Source: Isoetes taiwanensis (lineage: Eukaryota > Streptophyta > Lycopodiopsida > Isoetales > Isoetaceae). From it: DNA of 64,000 nt. A program made the position numbers and the translations under genes. How positions within the stretch are numbered: position 1 is the first letter of the stretch; each line of letters opens with the position of its first letter. The DNA lies in the NCBI GenBank assembly GCA_021234155.1, contig JAJEKV010000014.1, positions 14,868,494-14,932,493 on the forward strand. The letters are read 5' to 3'. Below, in pieces: positions 16,574-64,000 of this stretch. The notes beneath the pieces were generated by a model, which saw only the letters and a list, made by a program, of their open reading frames with translations, ran no database searches and was not told the origin of the DNA.

Positions 16574-18475
16574 TAAAGCATTCAAGAAGGCTTCCCTCCG
16601 CAGTGGACCACTAGTAGAGTTGTGACCATATACAAGGCAAGCGACCCTCAATGCCCAGCCAACTATCACACTATATATGGTCAGCTCTCTATTTGCAAAA
16701 CTGTTGGCTGGCATCCTTGAGCAGCGGCTGATGATATGGGCAAAAGAGGCAGAGGTGCGTGCTCTAACAAAGGCAGGCTTTCGACCCAGGCATTCCATCA
16801 TTGATCATATCTTCACTCTGCATACGCTAATTGAGGATAGCCGCCAGCAAAATCTGTACTGTTGTTTCGTGGATTTCGCAAAAGCTTTTGATACAGTTCC
16901 CCGGGACAAGTTATGGGACAGATTGCGGCAGCTAGGGACCGTTGTTGACTTGCAGAACGCAATATACAGGCTATAGAAGATATGCACAGGACGTCTCACA
17001 TCATCAGGACAACCGGTAGTCAGTAGTATTGGAGTATGTCGGGGTTGTCCCCTCTCCCCCACACTCTTTGGCCTATACATTGATCAGCTGGAAGACTGCC
17101 TTTCTAAACACGGAGGTACGTGCGCCCATCTCATGTATCACATAATCCGGCAACTCATAAATGCTGACGATGTAGACCTCCTGGCCTATACTCCAGAGGA
17201 GGTGCTGCTAGTTTCGTCATCCCGTCATCCAAGGCTTCCCTCATTCACTTACTAGGGGCAACATGTGGAGGTGGCTCCGACCTACAAGTATTTGGGGATC
17301 GAGTTCTCTACTACCATCCACTGGGATGCTGCCATCAGGTTGCATGTCACGGCGGGTTGGAAAGCACTATATGCCATGTAGAGCAACAGCCACAAGGCAG
17401 AGTTATATGCCTGGGGCCACCAGTCACACCTATTTAGGGCCTTGGATTGAGCCAGTTCTCCTGTACGGGGCAGAGGTGTGGGGTCCGGTGATATCTCTCA
17501 CCAATTGGAATGACCTCGAGCAGGTGCAGAAAGCCTTCTTGGCACGAGCCCTTGGGGTAAATCCACAGTTCCATACCAAATCCTACTCCAAGAGATAGGT
17601 TTTCTACCCCTTCAAAAAGCTGCATTCGAACGCCATATTATTTACTTCCAAAAGGTGGTCGCTATGGGTGATACACGTTTGTCCAACCTTACTTTGGTCG
17701 TAGCAATGGGTCCCCAACATCTCAAAGCCTGCTGGAAAGACAAGCAAGCTCCGTAGTTCTCACGTTGGGATGTACAGGCAAACAGATGCGTACAGGTACG
17801 AACAAAGAAGGATCACAATGCACTAAAGTTGTACCTCGATGCTAGTTTCCTTTGCAAGCTCCGGGATGCAGATGCTCTGACACATGTTAAGATGGCACAC
17901 TATCAGCAGCAAGTCAATCCTATGCTCACGAGAGGCCCGCACCAATACTTGTGCACCCATTTGCCCATGAAAAAGTGCAGACTTATAGCTTTCATTCGCA
18001 CGAGTGCACATCGTCTTTGCATTGAGACAGGGCGTTGGACTCAGGGAGCACGAGAGGATAAGCTTTGTCAGTGTTGCCACCAGGGTGCCATTGAAGATAA
18101 ATGTCATGCCCTTCAGATCTGCCCGGCATTTGCCCATATCCGAGCGCGGTATTTTCGGTTTAGTTGTGCCTGACTAGCCACTGCATGAGTTATTGAATAC
18201 GGCGTCCGTGGGATTGTTGGGGTCATAAGTTCAGGAGGTTATGGATACACGGACTCAGTTGTGTCCTCCGAGACAGTACTAAATTGTCCTATACAATTGT
18301 ACAGTATACCAGCATACTTGTTACTCCTAAGGTTTTTCCCTCAAAAACCCTTTGGGGCGTGGGTTTTTTAATCCTGACAGTAATACGCTTATTGCTCTCT
18401 TTTTGTTTGGGTCCCATAGGCCAATTGGTCTCTGTGGACGATAAAACATCTATTCTATGCTATTCTATTCTGTGA
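16574..18475 (+). mobile_element. 5'-truncated LINE with RT-domain remains and 3' end
   Basis: A non-LTR retrotransposon broken by frameshifts and stops. Reverse-transcriptase landmarks run in order: a degraded Y-x-P-I stretch, KAGFRPRHSIIDHIFTL, CCFVDFAKAFDTVPRDKLW (about 16855-16915), RGCPLSPTLFGLYIDQLE (about 17040-17095; motif B') and INADDVDLLAY (about 17158-17190). The last is the YADD catalytic box with Tyr replaced. Downstream come APTYKYLGIEF, WDAAIRLHVTAGWKALYAM and a C-terminal region with RLCIETGRW and C-x2-C spacing (CQCCHQGAIEDKCHALQICP; zinc-knuckle-like, about 18065-18125). The 3' UTR ends in a TATTC-type microsatellite tail. The endonuclease domain is missing. The CCFVDF-KAFDTVPR lineage is common in seedless-plant genomes. 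Inactive. Confidence 0.85.
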
Positions 18476-29636: not shown

Positions 29637-30742
29637 TTAGGTAAGAATGTCAGCTATCTGATCTTTTGTACTCTTGTATTCTACTGTAATTAATTTCTTT
29701 GCAACCATGTCACATATGAAGTGCACATGAAGCTCAATATGCTTTGTTCTCTGATGGAGAACTGGATTTCTAGTGATGGTCAAACAACTCATACTGTCTA
29801 TACATAAAACAGTAGGATTCATTTGTACTGCACCTAAATCGTTTAGCAATCTTCTTGTCCACACAATTTCGCTTCAAGCCAAAGAGGTAGGGTTATATTA
29901 TGCTTCTGCTGTAGACATCGCAATGCATCCTTGTTTTTTACTTCTCCATGCTATTATACATCCTTCTGCAAGCTTTAAAACATAACCTGATGTAGGTTCT
30001 CTGGAATCCATACCTTCCAAATCTGCATCTAAGTATGTTTCTAAATTTACATTGTCATTTGAAAAGGTTATTCCAACATATTGTGTACCTTTTAAAAATC
30101 TCAGAATTCTTTTTGCTGCATGCCAATGTGATTTTCCAAGGTTATTAGCTAACCTGCTCAATAAGTTTATAATGTATGAAATGTCAGGTCTGCAACAATT
30201 AGCTACAAACAATAGGCAACCTATTAATTCTTTATAAAGATATAACATATCATCTCATTCATCTCTGCTGCACTCTTTGGACGCATTTCTTGCGAGAACT
30301 TTTGTCCAGCTGCCAATTGAGAACCTACACAATTATATTCGTAATCCAAACTTTTTAAGCATGCCTTGAATATTCTTTGCTTGTGTTAACACAAGCCTCT
30401 TATGCTCTCTGTTCCTTACTTACTTCCATACCTAAGAAGTTCTTCAATTCACCTAGATCCGTCATTTTAAACCTTCTGTTCAGAATGCCTTTGCAAATAT
30501 TTAGGCATTTCGCATCATTAGCAACCATGATATTATCATCTACACACAAAACTATAACGGAAAATTGATCCTTGTCTCTAAATATATAGAGATTTCCATT
30601 ATTTTACATTTTTATAAACCCCTTCTTTAAGGAAGGTATCCATACAAAAATACCACTGACGAGGGGATTGTTTGAGCCCATAGACTGCTTTTTTCAATTT
30701 CCAAACCTTATTCTCATCTTTCTCAGAACCTGGCGCGCATGA
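29637..30742 (-). pseudogene. Ty1/copia pol relic (RT and RNase H), left of a nested insertion
   Basis: Read on the minus strand from the right: KVWKLKKAVYGLKQSPRQW (about 30650-30705), the copia RT signature; VLCVDDNIMVANDAKCL (about 30510-30560), the YVDD catalytic box with Tyr replaced by Cys; and MTDLGELKNFLGMEV (about 30430-30475). Then come LIGCLLFVANCCRPDISYII and HWHAAKRILRFLKGT (29.9-30.25 kb), and RNase H with GMDSREPTSGYVLKL, KKQGCIAMSTAEA and, one frame over, TKHIELHVHFICDMV and KSTKDQIADILT. Stops and frame changes make it inactive. Its upstream part lies beyond the insertion, at 38454 onward. Confidence 0.88.
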
Positions 30743-39357: not shown

Positions 39358-40956
39358 TGTGACGCTCCCCGAATCCATATGATGCTCCCATCGTATAAAT
39401 ACGGGAAATTCCCCTCCCATGGCGAATCCATCACAACGGAAAGGCCCTCCGTCTGACTCGTACCACTTGTGATGGCCAAGTGTCCGGGTGAAGGACACGG
39501 AGGTGTCATTCGTCCCATGCCTTCTATGGGAATCCTATATAGCGGAAGCGTACATACATGTTAGCACCTAGCAACAATACTAAATAATAATATATACCAC
39601 CATGAAGGGTGGCCCATCATCATCAATACAACTAACAACAGAATACCAACATAACAAAGGAAATACACCATAACTAAGGGCTCTACCCCGGGCTCAGACT
39701 CCATGGGGTTGACTGACGGTCAGGGCCTCAAGATAACAACAGACAGAGGTATAACATGGCATTGGCTGGCATAAGACAATGGCTAGGGTAGTCCACTCCA
39801 TCCGCCCCTCCTGTGCACACTTTGCAGATAGGTTGAATCATGCTATGACGTGCTTATAGCCCTCCGAAGACGCAATCCCAAGGAATCACCCTTCGGGACT
39901 ACTCCGGGTTAGATCTCCCGGTCCGATGAGGCAGGTCAGAGAGGCATCTCCTTCCCAAGTATGACGGATCCCTGGGTGTGCTAGAGAACACGTGCCCCCT
40001 CAGTGACCCCCGCATCTGTACCCGACTTACTCTCCTAAATCTAAAGGTCAGCTCACCAACCCGTTCGAGCCCAGGGCGGCCATATAGGCTCCCACCCTCC
40101 GGCCCAGAGAGTGTCAAACCCATACCCGGTCCACACACGGTGACCGGCTATAAGCCTAGCACACTATAGGAGTCCCGTAGCCGCGCTAGGCAAGACCCCA
40201 CCCCCGATTCACCCTCATACTCGTTATCTGGTGCTGAACCACATCATAGCATCCACAGCCAGGTTGGCTCTTGTGCACAGGCCGCATTTACTGGGTTTTA
40301 AGGGTTCTATCTAGGAGCATCTCTAATTCTAGATGACCTTTAGGTCGCTACCCCCTTTTTACCCATACAACACGGGAGGAACAGAAAGAAAGCTATCCTT
40401 ATACATCCATCCATCCATAACTTCGAATAGAATGTAAAATAGAGATTAACCATGCATCTATTCATACAAGGGTTAATCCTAGCTACCTTCTGAGCATACA
40501 AGGGTTAGTCCTATGACTATCTAGAAATCCAAGCTATCTACGCACTAACCGGGATCAAGCTAGGTCCACTATTGCTCGGGTTCTCCATCCTTCTGGCTGG
40601 AACAAGGTGGAACAACAACTCCTTCTCCATCAACCTCCCCCAATTCGAATTGGGGCAAATGGGGGTACAAAACCCCAATTTGGGTCCCAAGTTAGCAATC
40701 CTCACTTGCCCAATCGATTTGGGCCAGGTGGCAACTCTAGATTCGTTAATATTAGCTAATTTGGTATTTTAGCCCTTTTTAATATTAGGTTAAGCCCTAA
40801 ATTCGAATTAGGGGTTTGGGTTAGGTTTCCACTTTAATGATTAATTATTAACATAGCTAACCTTAGCTTATGAATAATTAATGCGCCATTAATTATTCAT
40901 AGTGACGTGTCATGTATTTATACTTAAAAAGGCATATAAATACGTGGAACGTCACA
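39358..40956 (-). mobile_element. Solo LTR (1.6 kb) with TTTAT target duplication
   Basis: Bounded by TGTGACG and CGTCACA inverted ends and flanked by TTTAT at 39353-39357 and 40957-40961. The interior aligns piecewise with the LTRs at 51951-53458 (same orientation) and 54374-55874 (opposite), for example 'ctcagactccatgg', 'actccatccgcccctcc', 'ggctcttgt(a/g)ca...ggccgcatt' and 'gatgctcccatcgtat'. No internal domain is attached, so it is the product of LTR-LTR recombination. Orientation is inferred from the family's primer-site side. Confidence 0.88.
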
Positions 40957-49788: not shown

Positions 49789-50121
49789 TTATGTTGCAGG
49801 TATGATAGTAGTATGAACCCAGGCAAGGATGAGAACCATACCTAAAACACCGCCTGTGATGAGCGTAGAGCTGGATATGGAAGTTCCAGGAATGGCAGAT
49901 TGGATCGATCTGTTAGGCGAGGACAAAAATTGCAGCGCAACCACCAGACTGAGGGGCAAAAGAAAGAGTGCAAGAGGCATCAAAGAAATGGATTCCGGCG
50001 GTTCTTCTTCTTCTACCTCCGCCGGAGCAAAAAGCGAAGGCGCTGACAAAACAAAGATCAGAATTACCAGAATCAAGAGCGGCATTGCGGGAGACGGCGA
50101 CGAATTATCCATCTTTACCAT
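49789..50121 (-). CDS. Small membrane protein, unrecognised family
   Basis: An intact 110-residue frame from ATG to TAA. It has three hydrophobic segments: about residues 12-32 (AMPLLILVILIFVLSAPSLF), 46-66 (LMPLALFLLPLSLVVALQFL) and 86-106 (TLITGGVLGMVLILAWVH). A Glu/Pro-rich loop (EVEEEEPPES) separates the first two and a Ser-rich loop the last two. The first segment could be a signal anchor. A plant-like 5' leader of about 120 bp precedes the start, and a G-box lies about 245 bp upstream. No frame damage is present, unlike almost everything around it, so I take it as a functional gene. I do not recognise the family; it reads like the small plant transmembrane proteins of unknown function. 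The stop codon lies directly after a CCTGCA sequence, so a spliced longer C-terminus is possible. Confidence 0.65.
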   Translation of the reverse strand: MVKMDNSSPSPAMPLLILVILIFVLSAPSLFAPAEVEEEEPPESISLMPLALFLLPLSLVVALQFLSSPNRSIQSAIPGTSISSSTLITGGVLGMVLILAWVHTTIIPAT

Positions 50122-50883: not shown

Positions 50884-51228
50884 CTATTCCTTCTCTGCAA
50901 TTCTCTTTCTCTTTGCTGCTTTCTTCCTCTTGATCATTTTCTTTTGCTGACGCGCTAGCTCCTCTGATAATGGCTGGTCCATCTCATTCTCCTCCTCTTC
51001 GCCATTGCCCTGATCCTCTGGGTTTTCTTGATTATCAGGGTCCTGAGGTTTTTCTTGCTGGTCTTGATGCTGTTGGTCCTCCTCCTCAGCATCTGGGTTG
51101 GGGTTAGGGTTTTCTTTTTGTCTGGCTCGCTCTCGAGCCTCCCTGGCCTTCTGTTCTACTGCAAGAACTTGGACGCTGGTGGAGCCGTCTGGCATAACCA
51201 CTCGAGCAGTTTGTTTGGTGCGGGCCAT
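50884..51228 (-). CDS. H3-tail ORF: histone H3 N-terminus fused to a charged non-histone protein
   Basis: An intact 114-residue frame from ATG to TAG. Residues 1-9 are MARTKQTAR, identical to the histone H3 N-terminus including the K4 context. Residue 10 (K in H3) is V, so the K9/S10 region is absent. Residues about 22-40 form a basic/acidic helix (VEQKAREARERARQKE). Residues 41-85 are rich in Asn, Pro, Asp, Glu and Gln. Residues 91-114 are strongly basic (KKMIKRKKAAKRKR), a likely nuclear-localisation or nucleic-acid-binding tail. No histone fold is present. A TATA-like box lies about 105 bp upstream. It sits directly in the leader of an LTR retrotransposon, where gag would normally start. 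If made, and after Met removal, the product would display an unmodified-H3K4-like tail. Role unknown; chromatin-reader binding is an inference. Confidence 0.72.
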   Translation of the reverse strand: MARTKQTARVVMPDGSTSVQVLAVEQKAREARERARQKENPNPNPDAEEEDQQHQDQQEKPQDPDNQENPEDQGNGEEEENEMDQPLSEELARQQKKMIKRKKAAKRKRIAEKE

Positions 51229-51331
51229 GTTTTGAAATAGGTCAATCGCCTTCCGAGCGCCTAAAAATCGCTTTCTTGGCCGGAGAGCAGCTAGCTGGAG
51301 AAGAAAGATGAAAATGAAGAATCCTAAGGAT

Positions 51332-51340
51332 CTATTTATA
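51332..51340 (-). promoter_or_regulatory. TATA-like box upstream of the H3-tail ORF (element A)
   Basis: TATAAATAG on the minus strand, about 105 bp above the start codon. Element B has TATAAGTAGA at almost the same distance (about 98 bp), followed by related sequence with a 'gcgattttagg' word. An internal promoter is suggested. Confidence 0.5.
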
Positions 51341-51451
51341 GGTCTGGGAGTTTTAGGTTTGGACCTGCAATTTCATGTTATACCATTATGTAAAATATTA
51401 GTGTTTGCTAGATTAATACATTAGGTTTTTTCAGGCAAAAAATACTCTACC

Positions 51452-51740
51452 ACTCACATAGTGCACGAGAGGCACTTTCAAAACTTTTGAAAAGGCCCTG
51501 GGCGCACTCTGTGAGGGGTTACTCCTTTTTGGCTTTAAATTTTAGTTTTCTATAAAGTTTCTTAGTGTTAGAAGATACTTTCCTAGCTTAAATTCAAATA
51601 CTAAGCTACCTTGAGCTATCAGATTATTCTAATTATGTATCTATCTAGGTCAAAATTGATCAACCACTCACACAGTGTGCGAGACCCTTGTTCAAATTTT
51701 TTGAAACTGCCTTGAGCGCACTCTGTGAAGGGGTTACTCC
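51452..51740 (-). repeat. Two palindrome-bearing repeats, period 215 bp (element A leader)
   Basis: Units at 51452-51525 and 51667-51740 each pair a CTCACA(C/T)AGTG(T/C)(G/A)CG arm with a GCGCACTCTGTGA arm around a loop containing 'ttcaaa.nttttgaaa'. The same architecture recurs downstream of the H3-like ORF in element B. Confidence 0.7.
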
Positions 51741-51936
51741 CTAATAGCCAAAATTTTTCAGGGTTTCTACTATTCTTCCTAACTTAACATTATCCTACTT
51801 TACTGTTCTGAGGATTGGAATTTTTTTTTCCCAATTTTTGAGGTTCATGCTTGGGTTGTCATTCCCAAGGCTAAAGGTCTACTGTTAGTCCTAACAGGGA
51901 AATGATCAGTGCCCGATCTTAGTCTACCAAGATCAT

Positions 51937-51949
51937 GGCTCTGATACCA
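51937..51949 (-). promoter_or_regulatory. Primer-binding site (initiator-Met tRNA) of element A
   Basis: TGGTATCAGAGCC on the minus strand, one base inside the LTR end. TGGTATCAGAGC is the classic plant complement to the 3' end of tRNA-iMet. Confidence 0.92.
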
Positions 51950-51950
51950 C

Positions 51951-53458
51951 TATGACGTCCCCTACTTCTTCTACGATGCTCCCATCGTATTGGAAGACAG
52001 AGTTCATCCCCCTGGCAGCCAAACTGCCAGATGCCATCCACCTGACACCAATCCTTTAGCAATGGATCGATGAGGAAGAATGGATGGGTCATTTGTTTCG
52101 TCTTCCCTCGGGACCGTCTTAGCTGCGGAAGCGTGAGTAAACGTAAGCACATGACATCAAATAGAAATAGAGTCATCTCGAAGGGTGACTGCACCATAGC
52201 ATACATGTATAAACACATCAACAATATCATCATCACAGGGAAGATCCTACCCAAGACTCAGACTCCATGGTGTGGACTAACGGCTTGGGTCTCCAGAAGT
52301 CATTGCAGACAGAATTCATAAGAGTGGATTGGGCTGGCATAGGACATCGTTGTTGGGTAGTCCGCTCCATCTGCCCCTCCCAGTGTACATTTTGTAGAGT
52401 AGGTTGAGGAGTCTAGGGACTGGACTGTAGCCTGCCAGGTACACAGCCGGGGTTTCATCTCCCCAGCCCCGATGAGGCAGGATGGGGATCACCCCCTCCA
52501 GAGGCATGCATGCGCATCACAGGCGGCTAGAGGGCCACTGCCCGTCTTCGACTTAAACCTCATTTGAGGTGACACATCACCCGAGAGGTGTCGAGCTCAT
52601 GCCTTGCCCACACGCAATGGCAAACCATTAAGCCTAGCCCGCTGAGATTCCTGGTAGGCTTTACACACCAGAGGGACCAATCAGTGATGGGACAAGTCCT
52701 CCTTATTCCACCGGTCTAGCCCCGCCACTCACAACCAGGCGGGCTCTTGTACATGGGCCGCATTAATTGGGAATTAATGAGGTTATCTAGAATCATCTGC
52801 TACTGACGATTTCAGGACCTCTACCCCCCTTCCCACATACACCAGAGAGCATAGAATGGAACATCGTCATCATAAAAGAACTGAGATACTGAATAATATT
52901 TAATCTATCTACCTAAACATGCATGGTTAGGTTCATTCGTTAAGGCTGGTGATCTTAGGATCTATAAGGCTGCTAAGACTGATCTACCATACTATCCTAG
53001 CTCATTGTCGGGCTGAAAGTCGGCTTTGCACAACGGAATCATAGGTTACCGGATCCTTGGCTTGCTCCTACGTCCATGCCTTCGTTCGGGCTGATTGCAG
53101 CTGCTCCTGAGAGATCTGTTGTGCAAATGCGGCTTAACTGCGCTGGCAATACGGACTAGCAGCTTGGCTTGGCCGGAATGGTCCAAGGAAGCCAAAATGC
53201 GAAAATGAAAAGGGTTTGGGGTTTTCCCTTTTGTTCCTTTTACATGACCTTTTAGGTTTAGGTTAGAAGGGACCAATGGGGCTCTGCTATTTGGCAAAGG
53301 GGTTTAATTGCATATGTTTAATATACATGTGCAACATACGAGGTTGCCCCCTAGGCGCAACTCTTTATGGCTCTCAAGTACTTGTCATGGTGACATGTAC
53401 GCATGACGTGGTAGTATAATATACATATTCAGACCGTATATTATGCTTGAACGTCATA
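51951..53458 (-). repeat. 5' LTR of element A (1508 bp)
   Basis: Plus-strand ends are TATGACG and CGTCATA, the same inverted ends as TGTGACG/CGTCACA in the solo LTR with one base changed at each side. It aligns piecewise with the LTR at 54374-55874 in reverse orientation (for example 'ctctggtgtgtaa(a/g)gcctacc', 'gagacccaagc', 'gtctgagtcttgggtagga' in sense). It inserted into, and cut off, the LINE fragment to its right. Confidence 0.85.
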
Positions 53459-54373
53459 CCTGTTCAAGGGCGCCGACATCTCAAAGCTTCCTGAGAAAGC
53501 AGGCGTCAAGATATTGCCTTAAGCTATGGCAATCCGTGTCTGTTTGCACTTGTATGCATCTGTGCTCCTGAACATTCCATCTGGCCAACCATTGAGCTCT
53601 CTTGTCTTTCCAGCATGCCTTCAAGTGTTGCGACTCCATTGCCACTATGTGGGCCAGGTGAGGGGAGATGAGAATCATCCATACTAACCATTTTTTAAAA
53701 ATAGACGATATGGCGGTCAAGGGCTGCCTTCTGAAGAGGGAAGAAGTCTGTTTCCTGTTACAAGATTTGATATGAGACCGTGGACCTCACCCCTGGCGCC
53801 CGTGTTAAGAAGGCTTTTTGCACTTAATCTAATTCATTCTAGGTGGCAAGAGACAACACTAGCCCCTAGACTTCAACCCTATATAAAAGGACAGGTTCCA
53901 CCAAAACCCTGAATAGGTGCGACTGATGAGCCCAGTCATATAGCTCCGCTCTATGGTTGTTGTTCTGCATTGCATAAAGTGCCTTCCAGCCTGCTGTCAC
54001 CCGTAGCCGAATGGAAGTGTCCCAGTACATGGCAGAAGGACACTCCACTTCCAGGTACTTATAACTTGGTGTCATCTCTATATTTTGTACGCGATAACTG
54101 ATGGAAGGGATCCTTGGCTGGAACGATGACGATATGAGGACCACCTTAGTCTTTTCCAAATTGACGTGCATGACCATCGCCTGGCAAAATGTATCCAAGG
54201 CAGCAAGATGGCATTGGATGTCCGCCGAGGTGTAGGCTAGAAGGTCCACATCAGTCGTGTATATTAGTTGTCTGGCAACCTGGTGCAACAGTTGAATCTC
54301 GTCCCCACCATTGTCGGCAAGCCCCCACTCGAGTTGAACCATATGGAGTCCAAATAGTATTGAAGAGAGAGGG
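53459..54373 (-). mobile_element. LINE fragment trapped between two LTR elements
   Basis: Minus-strand reading starts at LFGLHMVQLEWGL, just inside the border with element B. It passes through YTTDVDLLAY (the catalytic ADD site changed to TTD), LEKTKVVLISSS, TPSYKYLEVE, IRLRVTAGWKALYAM and AELYDWAHQSHLFRVLVEPV, and in another frame HLKACWKDKRAQW to YLDACFLRKL. It matches the LINE at 16.6-18.5 kb throughout. The part before LFGL and the 3' end are missing, cut by elements B and A. Inactive. Confidence 0.85.
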
Positions 54374-55874
54374 TGTGACGTTCAAAGACAAAGATATCTG
54401 GTCCCGGGGCGTATCATCTTTAAGACCGCCACGCTGCATTACCGCCGGCCCCAATCGGCGGTAATGCGCCCGACGTGTACCCAAGCAAGGGCGCCCTAGG
54501 GGGCAGCTTGCAATGGTGCACACACTTAGCAATGTGCGCACTTTTAGACCTTTAACCCATTAAAGGTAGACCAAGGGTCATGGAAACCCTAAACCTAACT
54601 GATAGCCTACATAAGGCACCAAACCCTAACTTTCCCTTTTTCGCCCTTAGACCTTCCGAGCTCCGATTCGCGCGCCCGAGGAGTCAATTCCAACTCCCAC
54701 GACCGCCCGGGCGCCTGCCTTGTCGGATCATCTTTTCCGACCGCATCCCCGGCGTAAGCGTAGACATGGGCTTCGGATCGAGAGGAGTGAACCAGGATCG
54801 TATTTGGTCGATTGAATAGCCTAAACCTTATTCCAGCCTCGAACCCAAAGAGGTTTAGCCTATTAAATCACCCTTAGTAGCCAAGCGGATCCCGAGATTG
54901 ACTCTAACTAAAGAACCTAACTCTATGAATTAGATTAGTTCTTATTTACTTATGTTGATATGATGGACGGATGTATTCTGTGGACTCATTGTATTGGGAA
55001 GGGGGATAGAGACTTAAAGCTTAGTAGATGATGCTCCTAGCTAGTCCCTCTTAGTGCATTACTAGTTTTCGCCACAGGTATGTGAGCCCACACGGGTTGT
55101 GGGTGAAGGGGCGGACCGGGCTTAGAATGAGGTTCGTGTTCTGACCCTTGACCGATCCCTCTGGTGTGTAAGGCCTACCGGGGATCAGAGTGACTAGGTC
55201 TAATGGCTTGCCACTGAGTGTGGATAAGGCATGGGCTCGACACCCGTGGGGTGGAGTTCACCTTCCAATGGGTTAAGTCAATAAGGGCGGTGGCCCTCTA
55301 GTCACCTTGGGTCAAGATGTAGATCTCTCGAGGGAGTGATCCTACACCGCCCCATCGGGATCGGGGAGATGTAACCCGTGAATAGCCCCTTTGGCTATGC
55401 ACCGTGAAGCAAGGGCCAGTCCCAACACTTTTCAACCTACTCGCAAAGTATGCACGGGAGGGGCGGATGGAGTGGACAACCCTAAGCCATGTTCTTATGC
55501 CAGCCCAATCCATTGTCATGATTACATGCCTCAAGACCGAACGGAGACCCAAGCTTGTCGGGCCATCCCCCGAGTCCGAGCCTTGGGTAGGAACTTCCTT
55601 GTATTGTGCCTGATCTTTGTCTATGCAGATGTTGATGTGCCACCCTTCGAGGTGGATATATATGATGTTATGTTATTGACGTGTATGTTTACGCCCGCAG
55701 CCTAGGTAGGCCCCGAGGGAGACGGGTAAAATGACCCCTTCACTCTTCCCATTTGTGGACTCTAGACGGTCCACATGATATGTGGAGGGCCCCAGACGTT
55801 GTGGGCTGGTGCGGGGATGAACTCTCGCTTGTATACGGTCGCGGGCATCATGATAACAGTAGGGGGACGCCACG
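54374..55874 (+). repeat. 5' LTR of element B (1501 bp)
   Basis: Begins TGTGACGTTC and ends GGGGGACGCCACG next to a degraded primer site. It contains an early GCATTACCGCC/GGCGGTAATGC hairpin. Similarity to LTR A (reverse) and the solo LTR runs along the whole length, and its first 640 bp are repeated at 63383-64000 in the same orientation. Confidence 0.85.
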
Positions 55875-55875
55875 G

Positions 55876-55886
55876 TGGTATCGAGC
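55876..55886 (+). promoter_or_regulatory. Degraded primer-binding site of element B
   Basis: TGGTATCGAGC, differing by a deletion from TGGTATCAGAGC, in the same position relative to the LTR end as in element A. The following 'aatgttcttgg...gcactgacca' matches element A's leader. Confidence 0.75.
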
Positions 55887-56079
55887 AATGTTCTTGGAGA
55901 CCAAGTGCAAAGCACTGACCATGCTCCCAGTAGTACTAACTTGATAGGATCCTCAAACCTCGAAAAGTGGGAAAATGTTTTCTCATTTTTGTAGTTTGTG
56001 CTAAGCTAGTAACAGTTAAGTGAATTGGAACTTAATAAGATTAAAAGACTAAAAGACTTAAAAAGACTAAAAAGACATC

Positions 56080-56089
56080 TATAAGTAGA
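56080..56089 (+). promoter_or_regulatory. TATA-like box upstream of the H3-like ORF (element B)
   Basis: TATAAGTAGA, 98 bp above the ATG at 56178, matching in place the TATAAATAGA of element A. Confidence 0.45.
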
Positions 56090-56177
56090 CCTAGAACCCC
56101 CCCATTTCTACGTTCCTCTTTGGAAAAATCGCTCCCCCTTGCTAAGGCGATTTTAGGGCGCCCGACCTCCGATCAAC

Positions 56178-56428
56178 ATGGCGCGCACCAAACAGACTGC
56201 TCGACTTCCTCGACAAGGCGAAACAGCCAAAGGCCAAGGAGGCCGAAGGAGATACAAGAAGAGGAGAGGGCAGAACGAGAGCAGGAGACCAAGGTTCAAG
56301 AAGCAGCAGAGCAGAAGCTGGTCCAACATTTTGAAGACTTGACAGCTTGCACTGTTCATGCAAAGCGAGTAACCCTCATGAGGAAGGACATGCAATTAGT
56401 TAATTTAATTAAGGGGGATCCCCAGTAG
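56178..56428 (+). pseudogene. H3-derived ORF: H3 tail plus out-of-frame H3 alpha2-alpha3 end
   Basis: The ATG frame begins MARTKQTAR, the exact H3 N-terminus, then turns Gly/Arg-rich and stops after 54 codons. In the +2 frame the same stretch reads QEAAEQKLVQHFED and VHAKRVTLMRKDMQLVNLIK to a TAG at 56426-56428. These correspond to the end of H3 alpha2 and to L2-alpha3 (in H3: QEAAEAYLVGLFED and IHAKRVTIMPKDIQLARRI). The alphaN, alpha1 and most of alpha2 are absent, replaced by a Glu/Arg-rich stretch similar in character to residues 22-40 of the element A protein. The ancestor was thus probably an H3-derived protein with tail and C-terminal fold retained. One frame break separates them here. 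Programmed frameshifting is not supported by any slippery site I can see. Confidence 0.72.
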
Positions 56429-56572
56429 ATATGTTGTAAATAATCAAAAATTTTGTTAATACAAGATAATTTTGAGTAGTTTATGTGTCAAATCTTGCTT
56501 AATTAGGACGAGTTAACAAGTAGTAGTTTTTGTTTTAGTAAAATAGGACATTTTCAAACCAAAAAGTGTGAT

Positions 56573-57242
56573 GTCTCACACGTCGCGTCTGGTCAAGAAA
56601 CTAAAGTTTAATTTTTGAACGAGGCGCTACCTGTGAGACCTTCATACTTAGACCATGTCCAAACTAGACCAAAACAAGCTCCAAATCGACCAAGTAAGGG
56701 GTCGATTCTGCCTGATTTATTGAGTCTGTTAGCCCTACACCCTTAGTTCACTTACATTGGACATGTTTTGATCCAAATGGGACCCATGTCTCACACGTCG
56801 CGCCTGGTCAAGAAACTAAAGTTTAGTTTTTGAACGAGGCGCTACCTGTGAGACCTTGCCCAAAGTTGCCTAAACAAGCTCCAAATCGACCAAGTAAGGG
56901 GTCGATTCTGCCTGATTTGTTGAGTCTGTTAGCCCTACACCCTTAGTTCACTTACTTGGACATGTTTTGATCCAAATGGATCGATGTGTCTCACACGTCG
57001 CTACCTGGTCAAGAAACTAAAGTTTAGTTTTTGAACGAGGCGCTACCTGTGAGACCTTGCCCAAAATTGCCTAAACAAGCTCCAAATCGACCAAGTAAGG
57101 GGTCGATTCTGCCTGATTTGTTGAGTTTGTTAGCCCTATACCCTTAGTTTACCCAAATTGGACATGTTTTGATCAAAATGGGACTGATGTCTCACACGTC
57201 TAAAGTCCAGCTTTTGAACGAGGCGCGCTACCTGTGAGACCT
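56573..57242 (+). repeat. Four-unit repeat array, period 200-215 bp, each with a palindrome
   Basis: Units start at 56573, 56788, 56988 and 57189. Each opens with a GTCTCACACGTCGC arm and closes about 65 bp later with CGCTACCTGTGAGACC, its imperfect complement. The loop contains 'gaaactaaagtttagttttt' and 'gaacgagg'. The rest of the unit ('caagctccaaatcgaccaag' and on) is highly similar between the first three. The fourth unit is truncated in the loop. It resembles the two-unit array in element A in arm sequence and period. It is not a CRISPR array; the units are too long and share their whole length. Confidence 0.88.
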
Positions 57243-57673
57243 CCAAACTTTGAACCTCCATAACTTGAGCTACAGAGCTCCAAATCGCCTGAAATTTGTT
57301 GCAATAGGACCGTTAGACAGCCTAGAATCCATTTATGACCTCAAATTAGGCTAGAAATGTCAAACCCCAGCCCAAAATGACCAAAATTTCTCAAACCCTT
57401 GAATTGTTTTTCCAAATTGTGGTTTGTTTGTAAATAGAAGCATACCCCATTAGTAGCTATAAGTATTGCTTTTTGCCTCGAAGCTGATGCCTTACTCCTA
57501 GATAGAAGTGCTCAAGAACACCCCTTTGTAAAGTCATCTAGACCTCAAAGATAGCAACCCAAGTCCAACTGTTGGTACATCACCTCTGCCATGCCCAAGG
57601 CATAAACCTTGACCTAATTTTGTGTCCTTCTAATAGAGTTTGACTTATATAGCAGCCACATTGACACTCCCTA
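57243..57673. other. Spacer after the repeat array
   Basis: No coding or structural feature recognised. Confidence 0.4.
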
Positions 57674-58195
57674 TTGCCCAGAATACCTAGAAAGGAGCTA
57701 GAGTCTAGAGCTACCCAAGTCACTCCATGTGTAGACATTCGACTCCTCCAAACCAACTATGCTAGGACCTTAGAGTATCTCTCAAACATCATGGAGGTTT
57801 TGCAAAACAAACCTCGCTTTCATGCCATACCACATGTCCTAATGTCCATAGACTTGTAGATTATAGATATGTCTTCAGAATGCTTTCGAGCCATCTTGCT
57901 TGCTTATAGAGCCCAGAATGTTGTAGGAGAGCCTTCAAGTAGACCCTTAGATTCTAGGATATATGAAGCCGTTGCTCTCAAGCTGAGGGACAGAGCCACC
58001 CAAGATTTAGAGGCGCAACTTCTTGAAGACATCAAGGTCCCAACCGATGTACGCATGGATATAAGGAGAGGAGACCGAAAGGCGGCAGACCCAAGAGAGG
58101 GAAGCACAACGACAAATACCTCAACCGACAAACGAGTAGAACAGACACCACCAACCTATCATCAATCTTCATCAAATGGGAAGGATATTTGGTAA
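57674..58195 (+). pseudogene. Element B internal ORF relic, unknown (about 173 codons with one stop)
   Basis: A single frame runs from 57674 to 58195 interrupted by one TAG (57857-57859). It reads helical in the first part (DIRLLQTNYARTLEYLSNIM, SECFRAILLAYRAQNVV, YEAVALKLRDRATQDLEAQL) and is Ser/Thr/Asn-rich towards the end. Position and composition would suit a gag-like protein, but there is no zinc knuckle and I do not recognise it. Confidence 0.35.
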
Positions 58196-61100
58196 CCAGC
58201 GGCATCAAGAATTTTCTAGATGTCAACCTTCTGGGCTACCACGCCCATGAGCTCACATCGTAAAAGAGGATCTCAATGCCTTCACCGACTCGACGCACAT
58301 GAGTTTCAAATGGAAGAATGCAAGGCAACAAAATACAGTGTAGGAAGACGTTAGACATCGATGCCGCATTAGCATCACGAGGTAGGGCCAGAGGGCATAA
58401 TCTTCCGTCGAGGAGAGAAGTCATGGCTACACAGAGCATATAGAAACCGGAGGGAAGACCACCACCACCTTGCAGCCCGCCAGCCTCAAGCTAATGTCAT
58501 GAAACGCCAACAAAAGGAGCAACCAAACTAGGCAATCACAAAGCACCCACGGCGACCGTGAGACGAAGTTTCCAGCCTCCCCTTGCACCAAAGGAGAACT
58601 TTCATCGGTTCCAAAAAGTAGGAGACCATGAGAGGGAGGAGACGATATCAAGGAGGAGAATATCCCACTTGAACAAGAATTCCCACCCAAAAACACCTAG
58701 AAACCAAAGGAAGGACGACCTTACTACGCCGCCCAAGGAGTAACGAGACTCGAATGGATAGGACCCAAAGGATCTAAGGAGACCACCTAGCCAGCAGGTA
58801 CAAATCACGCAAAAGGCCACCAAAAGGAGCTATGATAGGTGCAATGGAGATGATCACACTTCCGTGCACAAGAGATGCACTCTGAATGGAGCAAAGCCCA
58901 AGCAAATGTGTCGTGACTCGAGAAATTCAACCCGCGGAGGAATGACAAGGCATGCCTACCGACCACGATCATCTCGAGTCAAGACATTCAAGAATGCCCG
59001 ATCGCGAAACGGCCGGTGATCCTACTCAAGTGATCAACGGCACCGCACATCGGCAACACTTGACCTAACTTATGACACGAGTGGCCTCAACAATAGAAGG
59101 AGGAACGACCCGACATCAACGAGCCAACTAAGAAGGCAACATCTCGACGACCATAGCTCCACCTTGTGGTAATATAGGGTGATGCCCTATGACACGGGTA
59201 TTAGATGGAGATGCACTTACGAAAGGCACTGCGACGAGGAAATATGCCTTCAACAACTAGGTGATGGCTTCGTCAGGTACTCCTACCAGTAATTAGAAGA
59301 GAAGAAGCCAATCACATCTCCGACATGGGCACATCAAATGCCCAAGGTAGAAGCATTCGGCACCTTAACGACAAGGATAGCAACTGGAAGCACCTTCAAA
59401 GAAAAGAGAGTTCAAGATAACAGCCGTGCTATCCAACGACAAGAGTATATCTAAGGCGTGTACTTCTTCAACTCAAGGGTAAAGTCGCGCACATATAAGG
59501 ATCCATCATCCCAACAATGGAGCCATCGTGGAGGAGAGCCATGATGCCTTACTTGCCGTAGAGAGACCGACATGCATAGAGGGACAAAGGCCGTGAATCG
59601 AAAGCTGGAGAAGTGCTAGCAACCGACTTCTTCCACGCAGCTCCCTAGAGGCAACGGGGAGGATCAAAACCGACGAAAGCACAATCTAAGCCACCGGAAG
59701 GTACCTCAAGACAGAAGACAAAGATAGCACGTGGAACATGACAACGCCCAAGCCATGTGATCGAGGGATCAAACAAGGAAGTTTGGAAACTTCGATGGAG
59801 AAGCAACCAAGCGAGGCGAGCCGATGACTTGCACGCTGGACTTGCATGCAACTTGGTGAACCCAAGGATGGATGATTCAAAGAACAATCATAGAAGAGCA
59901 CAACTCCGAGGAGTATAGCCAAAGGAATCGCAAGACGACCTCAAGAGACGCCTTCAAATAGCTTCAAGTATCATGAAGGGGGGAACAGTTACCGCCCGAG
60001 AACAGGATCAGGAAGCAAACCGAAATGTCGAAGCATCAACGACCACCACACCTTTAGTTAGAATGTGATGCAAAGCGTGTTGTGCCATAGCCGACAAACA
60101 TCGGAGGGCCCAAGTACATCAACAAGTTACCCCGGAGTACGAGCTGACGTACAAATAGGAGGATATGGATCGTCAACACCATTGCACCGGGAGGAACACC
60201 GATGACATTGCCAAGGAGTAGGTGTGCAACTCGGAGGGAGGCACAAGGGGGACCTAATAGCTCTAGTAGTAATTGTAATTATGTGTTATATGCTTTGCAT
60301 ATATAGTTCCTTGTTGTCCCCCTCCATAGCGTAAATGATCAAAGGAAGAGATGTCGCAATTTGCGTGGGTGAAGCAATCAACATCCTCAACACTCTTGGG
60401 CAACAAGAGGACTCGATGTATGAGACGTCGATGGAGTCGAAGAAACAATATCGGATACAGAGTCGTCCTTTAGCCGCCAAGACAAAGAGTTCAAGATGAA
60501 AGATTTTTTTCAACGGCGCCACCTTCAGGCTTTTGAAAAGCGGCATGGAAGATTTCAAGTGATCAACTACACCATCAAGCCACTAGCAATGAGAGGTTTC
60601 TAACGAACAAAGTCAACCTCTACATCAAAGAGGAGCCACCGTCAAGGAGACTGAAGTATCGAGCGACTCGGAAGAACGCCACCTTGCTACTTCAAGGTGC
60701 AACGAAAGTGGATGAGCTTCTAGCAAGGTCAAGGATCTAAGGCCATGGGGCCTAGTAGGTTAAATGTAGGGATGGTAACATCCATATTGGGATTAGAAGG
60801 CATTGTTAGATATTCTCGCCGAAAGGATTGCCCCAATATTGAGCTAAGCGTCAAGTATTGGGAAGGAAACGCATAGGAGTAACTAAAATTATACACGATT
60901 TTTAACAGACATCCAATATATTGAAACCACTTGGTGAGATTGATCTCCTCACTAAGAAGGAATCATTACTAGGATAATTGTTGACCATGTATAAATCTAG
61001 TACCCCCAAAAGAATAATCTAACCGAAAGAAAAGAAGTAATCTAACAAGACCGACCAACTTGTTACGATGACATCAATTCGATTGGTAGGAATATTCCAA

Positions 61101-63370
61101 GAGTTTAAATAACTAAGAAAGGGGGAATATCTAGAATATAAAAGAATAGTACATGTAAGGTACATCTAAAATAAGAATTATAATCAAATAGTCTTTGAGA
61201 CAAAAGAATTGTCACAAGACAAACCAGGGATAGAATCGCTCTAACTAAGTAGGTAACCCATAAACTATATTGAAATAAAATGATAACATAACATGTGCAT
61301 CCATCCTAGAGCTGTTATATATGTATAGCCATATAAATAGTAAACTAATGCCAAGTAAGCAGCTTGATAAACCCTTAAGGGAGAGACAGATATGACGTTG
61401 TGTACACCACATTGAAGGTGACCATTTTTCTTTTCAATTAAAAGTGGAGGGCTCAATCTTAAGGATTGAACGTATCACCGAATTGACTCAATTCAGAATA
61501 GAGTTCACTCCGCAATGGCCGGCTGTAATAGAGCATAAATAGATAGATACCTTAGGCTCAGAGTCTTCAACGGCGAGACCATTTAGAAGCATTCACACCA
61601 AATTTATGGAGTAAACTATGGGAGCAACGAATCACCCTCCTTCAAGTCATCTCCAAATTACTCAAGCCATTAACGTGGGATGCATTCTAGCCTAGGTAAG
61701 GCGCACATGCATTATAGCTTTAATGTGTTCATAGATAAGTTAAATATAGATCCTAATAATTGCATAGAATTCCCATCAGGTATCGTAGAGTACATGTATC
61801 ACAATGGAAATAAGCAACAACAACGTATAATGAGGTAGCATGTTAATTAATCCTTCAAAGAAATGCAAATTCCTCTCAAGGATAGCTTGAAAGACCTCTA
61901 GTCCCTATAAATATAGATAGAAAATAGAATCTTATACACTTAAGTGCATCTAGGGATATACTCCATGGGTAATGCAGGACTCAAGGAAGAGAATAAGAAG
62001 CACATCTAATTTTGTGTATGATAATTAAAACCTTCTATGTAAATAATAGAATGCAAAAATCGCATATTATTTAAATAATCACATCTAAAAAGTCGCTAAA
62101 TATTATAAAGATTAGAGTAAATATGAATCGCATTTCATCGGAAGTAATGTATCCAAAATTATGATAATGTTAATTCATAAATATTACCTTAGGTAATTAT
62201 ATTAATCGCTATTGCATTAAAGGAGCCAAAGAAAATCGCCTCGCATGTCGAATGATTTGTTTAGATTAGCTCATGTGTAGTTGACATTCCATTTACGCAA
62301 CCTGCTGTATGTGGGTTGCATGCGATGACCGCATTAGCGATGAGATCATTACTGCGATCTCTAGACGGGTGTAATGTCAATGTAGGGCATGACCGCTACA
62401 CAAGGCTTGCAAAGTCTACTCGTCCCACTAAGCAGTGACGCACCCCAGAGAAAGGAGGTCATTGAAGAATGCATTGATAGGAAAAGCACCCTCTAGCCCC
62501 ATATATGCTTTGATAGGAGTGAATTCAGCCTTCACGCCCCATATAACGGAAGGACCTATCCTCCACCAAGTGGGGAACTAAAGGTGTAGCAATGAGCCAT
62601 ATAGGCATTATAGGCTACCGCCTCCACGGCCACCATGAAGAAACATCCCTTCCTACTGAGATTAGCCACATGCATTCATGTAGATAGGTGGGGTGTGGTC
62701 ACCATAACCAAAATTTTATTAATAATTAAATGGTAATTAACGAGTGTTGACTGCGCAGCTTTAACAGAGCGCCCGAGGGCAAGGAGGTCGAATAAGACTT
62801 GCAACACAAATTTTGTTATAATGTGTTGTAAGGAAATGCAAGAGTACCTTTAGAAGTGTAAATTTTGTATGAAATTGATAAACTTTGAAAACTTAAAATG
62901 TTGTATTAAGCAAGGTTACAATTACCTTGTGGATTAAGTTATAAAGTCATAAGTTAATTGGATAATGAAGAATGTTCTAAAACATTACCTTAGAGTAACT
63001 CTAATAATTATGATAGTGGGCAATTGTATATTGTAAAATTAATACAGATTTATAGGCAAGACTTTGCAACAACAAATTTGTTGGGATGTTGCAAGGAATG
63101 AAGAGTACCTTAAATAATAATTGTATATGAAAGTGTTAAATTGTGACAAAACTAAAATGCTGTGATAACTGAGACTAATAAGTACCTTTGTCGCCAGGAA
63201 GTTACGTTATATTTGATAATGTAATGGATAATAATGATTTAAAAATATTATCTTAAGGTAATATTAATAAATGTGTAAGTATTATAGTAGTATAATCGTG
63301 ATGCACGTTGATTGCAGTGCTAGCAAGCAGATTCCAAGGTGGGGACCACGATGCCGGACAACATCATTTC
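58196..63370. other. Element B interior without recognised genes
   Basis: 58.2-60.7 kb is A/C-rich on the plus strand with short, stop-broken frames of Arg/Lys/Thr-rich content. 60.8-63.3 kb is A/T-rich and non-coding. I looked for reverse-transcriptase (xDD), RNase H and integrase signatures on both strands and saw none. Long minus-strand frames in the first half are compositional. Confidence 0.5.
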
Positions 63371-63382
63371 AGGGAGAATAGA
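63371..63382 (+). promoter_or_regulatory. Polypurine tract of element B
   Basis: AGGGAGAATAGA directly before the TGTT start of the 3' LTR copy. It is purine except for one T, and it is in the expected position for plus-strand priming. Confidence 0.65.
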
Positions 63383-64000
63383 TGTTCTGTGGATGAGAGA
63401 TACGTCCCAGACGAGCATCAGATCAAGACTGGCCACGCTGCATTATCGGCCCCAATCGACGGTACGCCCGGACGGTACCTAAGCAAGGGCAATGAAATGG
63501 TGCAATACACTTAGCAATTTGTGCATTTTAGATCTTAACTCCATTAAAGGTAGACCATGGTCATGGAAACCCTAAACTCTAACCGAGAATTTACATAAGG
63601 CACCAACCTTCTGATCCTTTCCCTTTTCGCCTACGACCTTCCTCAACTCCGGATTCGGGCCGAGGAGTCAATTCCAACTCCCACGATCCGCCAAGGCACC
63701 AGCCTTGTCGTGATCATCCACCCATCCCGGGCTAAGTAACAGACATGGACGCCTTCGGATCAGAGGAGGAACTGTGTGGATCGTATTATTCATTGAATAG
63801 CCTAAACCTTTTGTATTCCAAACTCCTCTCAACCAAAGAGGTTTTAATTTTATTAAATCAAATCTTTAGTAGCCGCTGCATCCCGAGATTGATTCCTAAC
63901 TAAAGAACCTAACTCTATGAATCTAGATTAGTTCTTATTTACTTATGTTGATAAGGATGGATCGATACTGTGGGACTCCATTGTATTGGAAGGGTAGAGA
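63383..64000 (+). repeat. 3' LTR of element B, first 618 bp (runs off the window)
   Basis: From TGTT onward it aligns with the 5' LTR start in the same orientation. Matching stretches include 'ccacgctgcatta', 'gcaagggc', 'cattaaaggtagacca', 'ggtcatggaaaccctaaac', 'gaggagtcaattccaactcc' and 'aactaaagaacctaactcta'. Many small indels separate the copies. Confidence 0.82.

Follow-up and report, generated by a model that had tools for sequence, protein, structure and literature searches.

A stretch of 64,000 nucleotides from Isoetes taiwanensis (GenBank assembly GCA_021234155.1, contig JAJEKV010000014.1, positions 14,868,494 to 14,932,493 of the forward strand), called the window below, was analysed for two long terminal repeat (LTR) retrotransposons, elements A and B, whose open reading frames (ORFs) open with the N-terminal tail of histone H3. 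An earlier sequence-only reading of this DNA had pointed to ferns; the source is a lycophyte. Its observation that MARTKQTAR starts both ORFs was confirmed, in a minus-strand ORF (51228–50884, 114 aa) and in a plus-strand frame at 56179. About 1e-7 occurrences of this peptide are expected by chance in the window, both strands included. In both elements the ATG lies behind an LTR, a primer-binding site and a TATA-like box, as had been read.

Element A lies on the minus strand. Its 5' LTR (51951..53458), of the family termed F1, has decayed termini (TATGACG...CGTCATA) and is 66–68% identical to the LTR of element B and 79% identical to that of the genome copy L051. It is followed by an exact primer-binding site, TGGTATCAGAGC (51938..51949), presumably of the initiator-Met tRNA type, and by a TATA-like box, TATAAATA (51333..51340), which is located 112 nt upstream of the ATG and may act as an internal promoter for the H3 ORF. 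The ORF itself (50884..51228) encodes MARTKQTAR and a linker and corresponds to residues 1–114 of the F1 histone ORF, which is otherwise 379–388 aa long; element A is truncated after residue 114. A histone-fold match was sought downstream of the ORF using Pfam and tblastn, and none was found.

Element B lies on the plus strand. Its 5' LTR (54374..55874) pairs at 77% with a 3' LTR (63425..64000) that extends past the window end. A decayed primer-binding site, TGGTATCGAGC (55876..55886), precedes the H3 tail MARTKQTAR (56179..56205). The C-terminal half of H3 (alpha2–alpha3, 56246..56428) begins 67 nt after the tail ATG and is in another frame, the middle of the ORF and its frame having been lost. 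This half was recognized by Pfam Histone (2.2e-6, 28.4 bits, cut-off 26.4), by a match to H3 in the PDB (1.6e-9) and by tblastn (3e-11). Element B, with an LTR pair and a long interior without gag-pol, fits a non-autonomous element resembling large retrotransposon derivatives (LARD-like); Pfam gave no match to gag or pol (E <= 0.1) in the three plus frames of 56500–63430. The leader and pre-ATG stretches of A and B are homologous (for each, 0/300 shuffles were as good). The stretch right behind the tail is weakly similar, and this coding similarity was rejected as standalone evidence with 9/300 shuffles as good; further downstream no similarity was detectable (226/300 shuffles as good). Three to four tandem copies of about 200 nt lie just past the broken H3 ORF of element B (56571–57242), and the leader of element A contains a two-copy repeat (51433–51732) unlike this one.

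The ORF of element A is the N-terminal remnant, and that of element B a broken copy, of an element-borne H3 gene. The 'non-histone protein' of the sequence-only reading was an appearance due to the truncation of A and the breakage of B, and the family ORF encodes a whole H3-fold protein. The idea of a tail-only protein was rejected on the same grounds, longer genome copies containing the fold. Family F1 was searched in the whole genome with the element A ORF as query, and the best 150 of 2226 first-look candidates were scored. All 150 matched, with open frames of up to 537 aa. Fifty of them were read, namely the 30 best scoring and 20 picked mainly for long frames; they include two near-identical pairs (L031/L033 and L024/L025). 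Copy L011 is out of frame at its start and per-position counts were therefore made on 49 copies. The F1 ORF consists of the H3 tail, a charged linker of about 280 aa and a complete, diverged H3 fold at the protein end. The linker has acidic parts, highly basic stretches and a tyrosine-rich stretch. Five copies (L031, L033, L039, L040 and L043) are open from the ATG to the common end, at 379–388 aa, and many other F1 copies are interrupted. The fold was recognized by Pfam Histone in three copies (7.5e-20, 4.9e-17 and 1.2e-17; the scanned spans start six codons before the ATG and stop six codons early), and L040 matched H3 in the PDB at 8.6e-19. The first two rows of alignment A1 start one codon early and end one residue short. 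Copies L032 and L034, located near L031/L033 on C907, share the point at which a cut H3 fold passes into downstream sequence (..EFVIGPQPSFAPYPF..); the region may have been duplicated, or chimeric copies may have spread.

The tail proved to be family-wide beyond the two window copies. The H3 residue was the majority at all nine positions in the 49 in-frame genome copies, the first eight H3 residues (ARTKQTAR) were kept and K4 was present in 49/49. Exact MARTKQTAR was found in 20/50 copies, and L039 has a W at residue 9. The nine tail codons had 97 base changes, 45 of them nonsynonymous, and 30 of these 45 were C>T or G>A, a pattern that would be as expected for methylated DNA after insertion. 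Subfamily-diagnostic residues, defined by >=8 copies with a second residue (a threshold chosen after looking), occupied 0/9 tail positions versus 11/31 of the next positions (Fisher p 0.043). Position 10, the counterpart of H3 K9, was V in 27 and M in 22 of the 49 in-frame copies. The motif ARK[ST] was absent from 12 F1 ORFs scanned, two of which were misframed. A box TATAA[AG]TA was located 80–160 nt before the ATG in 23/30 copies, 18 of these at 110–113. The expectation that a primer site lies upstream of the ORF elsewhere in the genome was borne out in 21/30 copies (<=2 mismatches, within 1.1 kb), 19 of them with the site 686–743 nt upstream.

The H3 ORF is a regular constituent of a clan of Ty3/gypsy chromoviruses in the Isoetes taiwanensis genome. 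The order of the clan is LTR, primer site, H3 ORF, gag, protease, reverse transcriptase, RNase H, integrase (SH3-like and chromodomain) and LTR; for F1 it was pieced together across copies, none having been read complete with both LTRs. The sequence-only reading had put the ORF in gag position, and gag is a separate gene downstream of it. In L051, an LTR, an exact primer site and the H3 ORF are followed by Retrotrans_gag (3.3e-14) and Ty3_capsid (1.5e-12). A DnaJ domain was found in L052, which is probably a host gene, so that the L051 element seems to end before it. Gag and protease follow the ORF of L040 (in L053), and three F1 copies at distant places are colinear at 84–93% downstream of the H3 ORF. 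Behind copy L043 (in L075), matches were obtained for reverse transcriptase (2.1e-27), RNase H, the integrase zinc domain (3.5e-16), SH3_Tf2-1 (2.6e-20) and Chromo (7.9e-6, 26.2 bits, cut-off 25.1). The pol region of L075 is split by an apparent nested insert of about 6.9 kb, and a 157-nt stretch at 90% links L075 to the protease end of L053. The integrase match of L053 is not safely that of F1 because a B-type LTR sits between protease and integrase. A solo B-type LTR with the target-site duplication GAAAG is inserted right behind the F1 H3 ORF in L054 (reverse complement 436–1992), where no Pfam match was found in 9.6 kb. The repeat-rich L076, downstream of L046, was left out of the Pfam scan. 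The LTR ends (TGTGACG...CGTCACA), the primer-binding site TGGTATCAGAGC and the target-site duplications ATAAA and GAAAG at two solo LTRs fit chromovirus LTRs. A viral-contig scan gave 44 pattern matches and no relatives among them.

The H3 query gave 9022 first-look candidates, a loose count that shows scale and not copy number, and the best 150 were scored. Fifteen are host-like genes at 96–98% identity to Arabidopsis H3.1, separate from the elements. The other 135 have 71–86% identity, mostly from residue 11–36 to 133–135, and many have frames of 420–500 aa. Among these 135, 22 copies of a second type, F2, were read, six of them picked for long frames and 16 taken from throughout the list, including two picked for being tied to an LTR. 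The six ORFs read first are 409–421 aa long and carry a C-terminal, near-canonical H3 fold (Pfam Histone 2.5e-41, 5.2e-41 and 3.2e-41 in three copies); each of the 16 further copies also ends in a fold of this kind. The F2 N-terminal part of about 300 residues is conserved, distinct from that of F1 and starts with MA-x-TK; the H3 tail is absent. This start recalls ARTK. No Pfam match above cut-off was obtained for residues 1–290 of L067–L072. One site in the linker, some 50 residues upstream of the fold, reads ARK[ST]G in 6/22 copies (L068, L070, L079, L082, L086 and L090), AHK[STA]G in 13/22 and neither in 3/22. The last three (L091–L093) also start without MA-x-TK and could form another subfamily. 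ARKS was found in two of the six F2 ORFs read first, and the statement that neither family has an ARKS context was rejected; judging from these motifs, some F2 copies may possess a methylatable site of their own.

The F2 ORF also belongs to a chromovirus. In L071 it is preceded by an LTR (TGTGACG...CGTCACA) and an exact primer site. On the same strand as the H3 match L089, the adjoining L077 contains gag (weak, 1.1e-3), RVT_1 (1.1e-25), RT_RNaseH (1.7e-31), Integrase_H2C2 (7.5e-19), SH3_Tf2-1 and Chromo (4.5e-7, 30.1 bits, cut-off 25.1), followed by a 3' LTR. No gag or pol match was found in L074, the 10 kb behind the F2 ORF of L071; a B3 DNA-binding-like match at aa 1755–1809 of its frame 3 was just below cut-off (29.6 vs 30.1 bits). 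For the F2 LTR, the best 40 of 6503 candidates were scored, and their distances to H3 were taken from the H3-query and CENH3-query matches on the contigs concerned, which are partial lists. An H3 match lay at a fitting distance from 15/40 places, and 25/40 had none in these lists. H3 was 1.58–1.69 kb downstream of the LTR at 7/40 places and 7.2–17.5 kb upstream at 8/40, five of these at 8.94–9.03 kb, with one H3 match serving both groups. Three F2 LTR pairs are 10.4–11.6 kb apart. The F1/B-type and F2 LTRs are about 63% alike over 380–480 nt and the gag-to-integrase stretches 61–71%, which indicates that F1 and F2 are related.

Selection was estimated from pooled NG86 ratios of nonsynonymous to synonymous substitution rates (dN/dS) in copies picked by similarity and long frames. 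For F1 (L031, L039, L040, L043 and L046, two stops of L046 being skipped) the ratio was 0.15 (linker 0.15, fold 0.13) at a dS of about 0.55–0.58. For F2 (first 6) it was 0.12 (N-terminal part 0.13, fold 0.03) at a dS of 0.47. A 12-row F1 set was discarded, L026 and L014 being out of frame. Query bias does not explain the constraint in the F1 fold and in the F2 N-terminal part, because these lie outside the search queries. It is almost certain that the H3-fold gene is borne by the elements and under selection. The dS of 0.03 between L071 and L072 suggests recent movement. The H4 query gave 69 first-look candidates and 43 matches, 16 of which are full-length genes at 99–100%; it revealed no H4 family comparable to the element H3, and H2A and H2B were not searched.

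The H3 fold (alphaN and alpha1–3) is present in F1 and F2, as judged by sequence. Ungapped identity to host H3 in the fold is 44/87 for F1 (L040) and 74/87 for F2 (L071). Residues R49, R69, R72, R83, C110, H113, R116, D123 and L126, presumably with H3–H3' and DNA-contact roles, are kept in both copies; K56, K64, K79 and K122 are kept in L071 only. Neither family has the host H3 tail with its K9 and K27. In a tree of 17 rows (16 different), F1 copies grouped together (100/100) and F2 grouped with host and Arabidopsis H3 (90/90), on long branches; this tree is compatible with one capture or two. An identity with CENH3 was rejected. Plant CENH3 proteins resemble the element proteins in the MARTK start, the variable N-terminal part and, for F1, the EIRHFQ and LLIP motifs; they differ in their lengthened loop 1, whereas loop 1 of F1 and F2 has H3 length. 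The identity of F1 to two plant CENH3 sequences is 38–45%, and it stands no nearer to them than to host H3 (43–44%). None of the best 150 of 7073 candidates for the CENH3 query could be singled out as the host CENH3, and many of these matches coincide with H3-query matches.

A use of the element H3 in nucleosomes, against silencing or for marking chromatin, is proposed tentatively, its chance being put somewhat below even. ARKS is the context of K9 and K27 methylation and reading. The element H3 ORF would be expressed, its product would pair with H4, and the pair would enter nucleosomes to give element-marked chromatin. In F1, where K9 is replaced by V or M and an ARKS context is lacking, an unmodified K4-bearing N-terminus would be offered to H3-tail readers; tail mimicry, proposed in the sequence-only reading, may be part of the action of this family. 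In F2, the linker motifs ARK[ST]G or AHK[STA]G would take the place of the K9/K27 tail. Nucleosomes of this kind would weaken K9/K27 silencing on element chromatin or, where ARK[ST] is kept, present a site that could be read by the chromodomain integrase of the same element. What the two families have in common is the fold, which F2 has without the tail. A further step, that the clan builds its own chromatin, the K9/K27 tail being replaced and the H3 working with the integrase chromodomain so that the element would both supply and read the chromatin signal, is less likely than not.

Several points weigh against nucleosomal use. Tail reading cannot be the shared function, since F2 has no H3 tail. 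The ARK[ST]G site of F2, methylatable like K9/K27, counters a simple silencing-blind histone. The F1 fold carries R63P, K79D and F84V relative to host H3 and, diverged as it is, may not form ordinary nucleosomes. AlphaFold models of F1 and F2 were poor, with predicted local distance difference test (pLDDT) values of 51 and 41 from 6 and 5 alignment rows. The choice of copies by similarity and long frames lowers the apparent dN/dS. One nested B-type copy contained no M-x-RTK, ART[KR]Q or HAKRVT in the plus frames of the fetched part and, the H3 of element B being broken, these two elements spread with no functional H3 of their own in cis.

Some of the same data bear on a targeting tether, in which the element H3, placed in chosen chromatin, would guide the element's own chromodomain integrase there and any effect on silencing would be secondary. 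A chromodomain is a reader of methylated ARKS, and one is encoded downstream in both families (Chromo, 26.2 bits in F1 and 30.1 in F2). One F2 linker site would be available to it; the counts of its two forms lowered the standing of nucleosomal use from just under even to its present level and raised that of the tether slightly, from distinctly unlikely to moderately unlikely. The lack of ARK[ST] in the F1 ORFs scanned, the three F2-type copies without a linker site and the spread of copies over many contigs speak against it.

Packaging of the particle or cDNA is a less probable function. A basic histone-fold protein would condense element RNA or cDNA like a nucleocapsid and would not last in host chromatin. 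Viral histones that package genomes are precedents, the F1 linker has highly basic stretches and the H3 ORF adjoins gag. F2, however, keeps nucleosome interface residues and a fold dN/dS of 0.03, which is more than simple charge needs. A decoy acting by the tail alone, with a free H3 N-terminus that sequesters H3-tail readers and an incidental fold, would agree with the majority H3 residues and the absence of diagnostic positions in the F1 tail; it is improbable, as F2 has no tail and the F1 fold (dN/dS 0.13) is as constrained as the rest. Captured gene fragments are known in plant LTR elements, and neither of the B-type elements seen has a working copy, as for an H3 captured by accident and amplified without function. 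Such a passive passenger is very improbable given the whole-ORF dN/dS of 0.12–0.15, the F2 fold value and a dS of about 0.5 in two families whose LTRs are only about 63% alike. Host H3 pseudogenes or retrogenes merely beside LTRs, named in the sequence-only reading as the adverse case, would account for the derivation from H3 and have next to no probability; they are refuted for the copies examined by an arrangement and spacing relative to LTR, primer site, gag and pol that is fixed in colinear copies at unrelated places, by the linker and N-terminal parts common to the copies and absent from host H3, and by the 15 separate host-like genes.

The clan resembles other Ty3/gypsy chromoviruses in its LTR, initiator-Met-type primer site, gag, protease, reverse transcriptase, RNase H, integrase and chromodomain. 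What sets it apart is an additional pre-gag ORF for an H3 fold, headed in F1 by the H3 tail. Some LTR elements, such as Ogre/Tat (ORF1) and Bs1, are known to contain extra ORFs or genes captured from the host. These share with the clan an added ORF between LTR and gag, or a host-derived gene, whereas the gene of the clan is a core histone that purifying selection maintains in two families. Histones encoded by viruses include bracovirus H4 and those of Marseillevirus and Medusavirus; there too a mobile genetic entity has its own histone-fold protein, but here the carrier is an LTR retrotransposon and the histone is H3. Influenza NS1 is an H3-tail mimic with an ARTKQTAR-like sequence, and the F1 tail differs in forming the actual N-terminus of its protein and in being attached to a genuine H3 fold. 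A retrotransposon-encoded histone H3 was not found described in the titles and abstract openings listed by full-text literature searches, with subscription papers and preprints outside their scope. In the Isoetes taiwanensis assembly, LTR elements make up 15.72% according to PMC8566536, in the main text of which the word 'histone' occurs 0 times. If the proposal is true, a transposable element took over a core histone rather than merely evading histone marks. It would permit a direct test of whether genomic parasites edit nucleosome composition, provide a natural set of selection-kept H3 folds with altered tails and offer a fresh approach to this large clan of lycophyte retroelements. Element H3 ORFs may be miscounted by automatic annotation as host H3 variants.

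Other features of the window were recorded. An LTR of a related family (39358..40956, minus strand) has TGTGACG...CGTCACA ends. It was considered as the 3' LTR of element A and rejected, being a solo LTR with its own target-site duplication, ATAAA. A hydrophobic 110-aa ORF without Pfam match (49789–50121, minus strand), maybe a host gene, adjoins the truncated element A. Two reverse-transcriptase-like stretches, 53532–54146 (between elements A and B) and 17200–17813, are 67% similar and from their look are presumably remnants of long interspersed nuclear elements. An ORF at 29898–30248 (minus strand) resembles the RNase H end of Ty1/copia elements in what is taken to be its motif.

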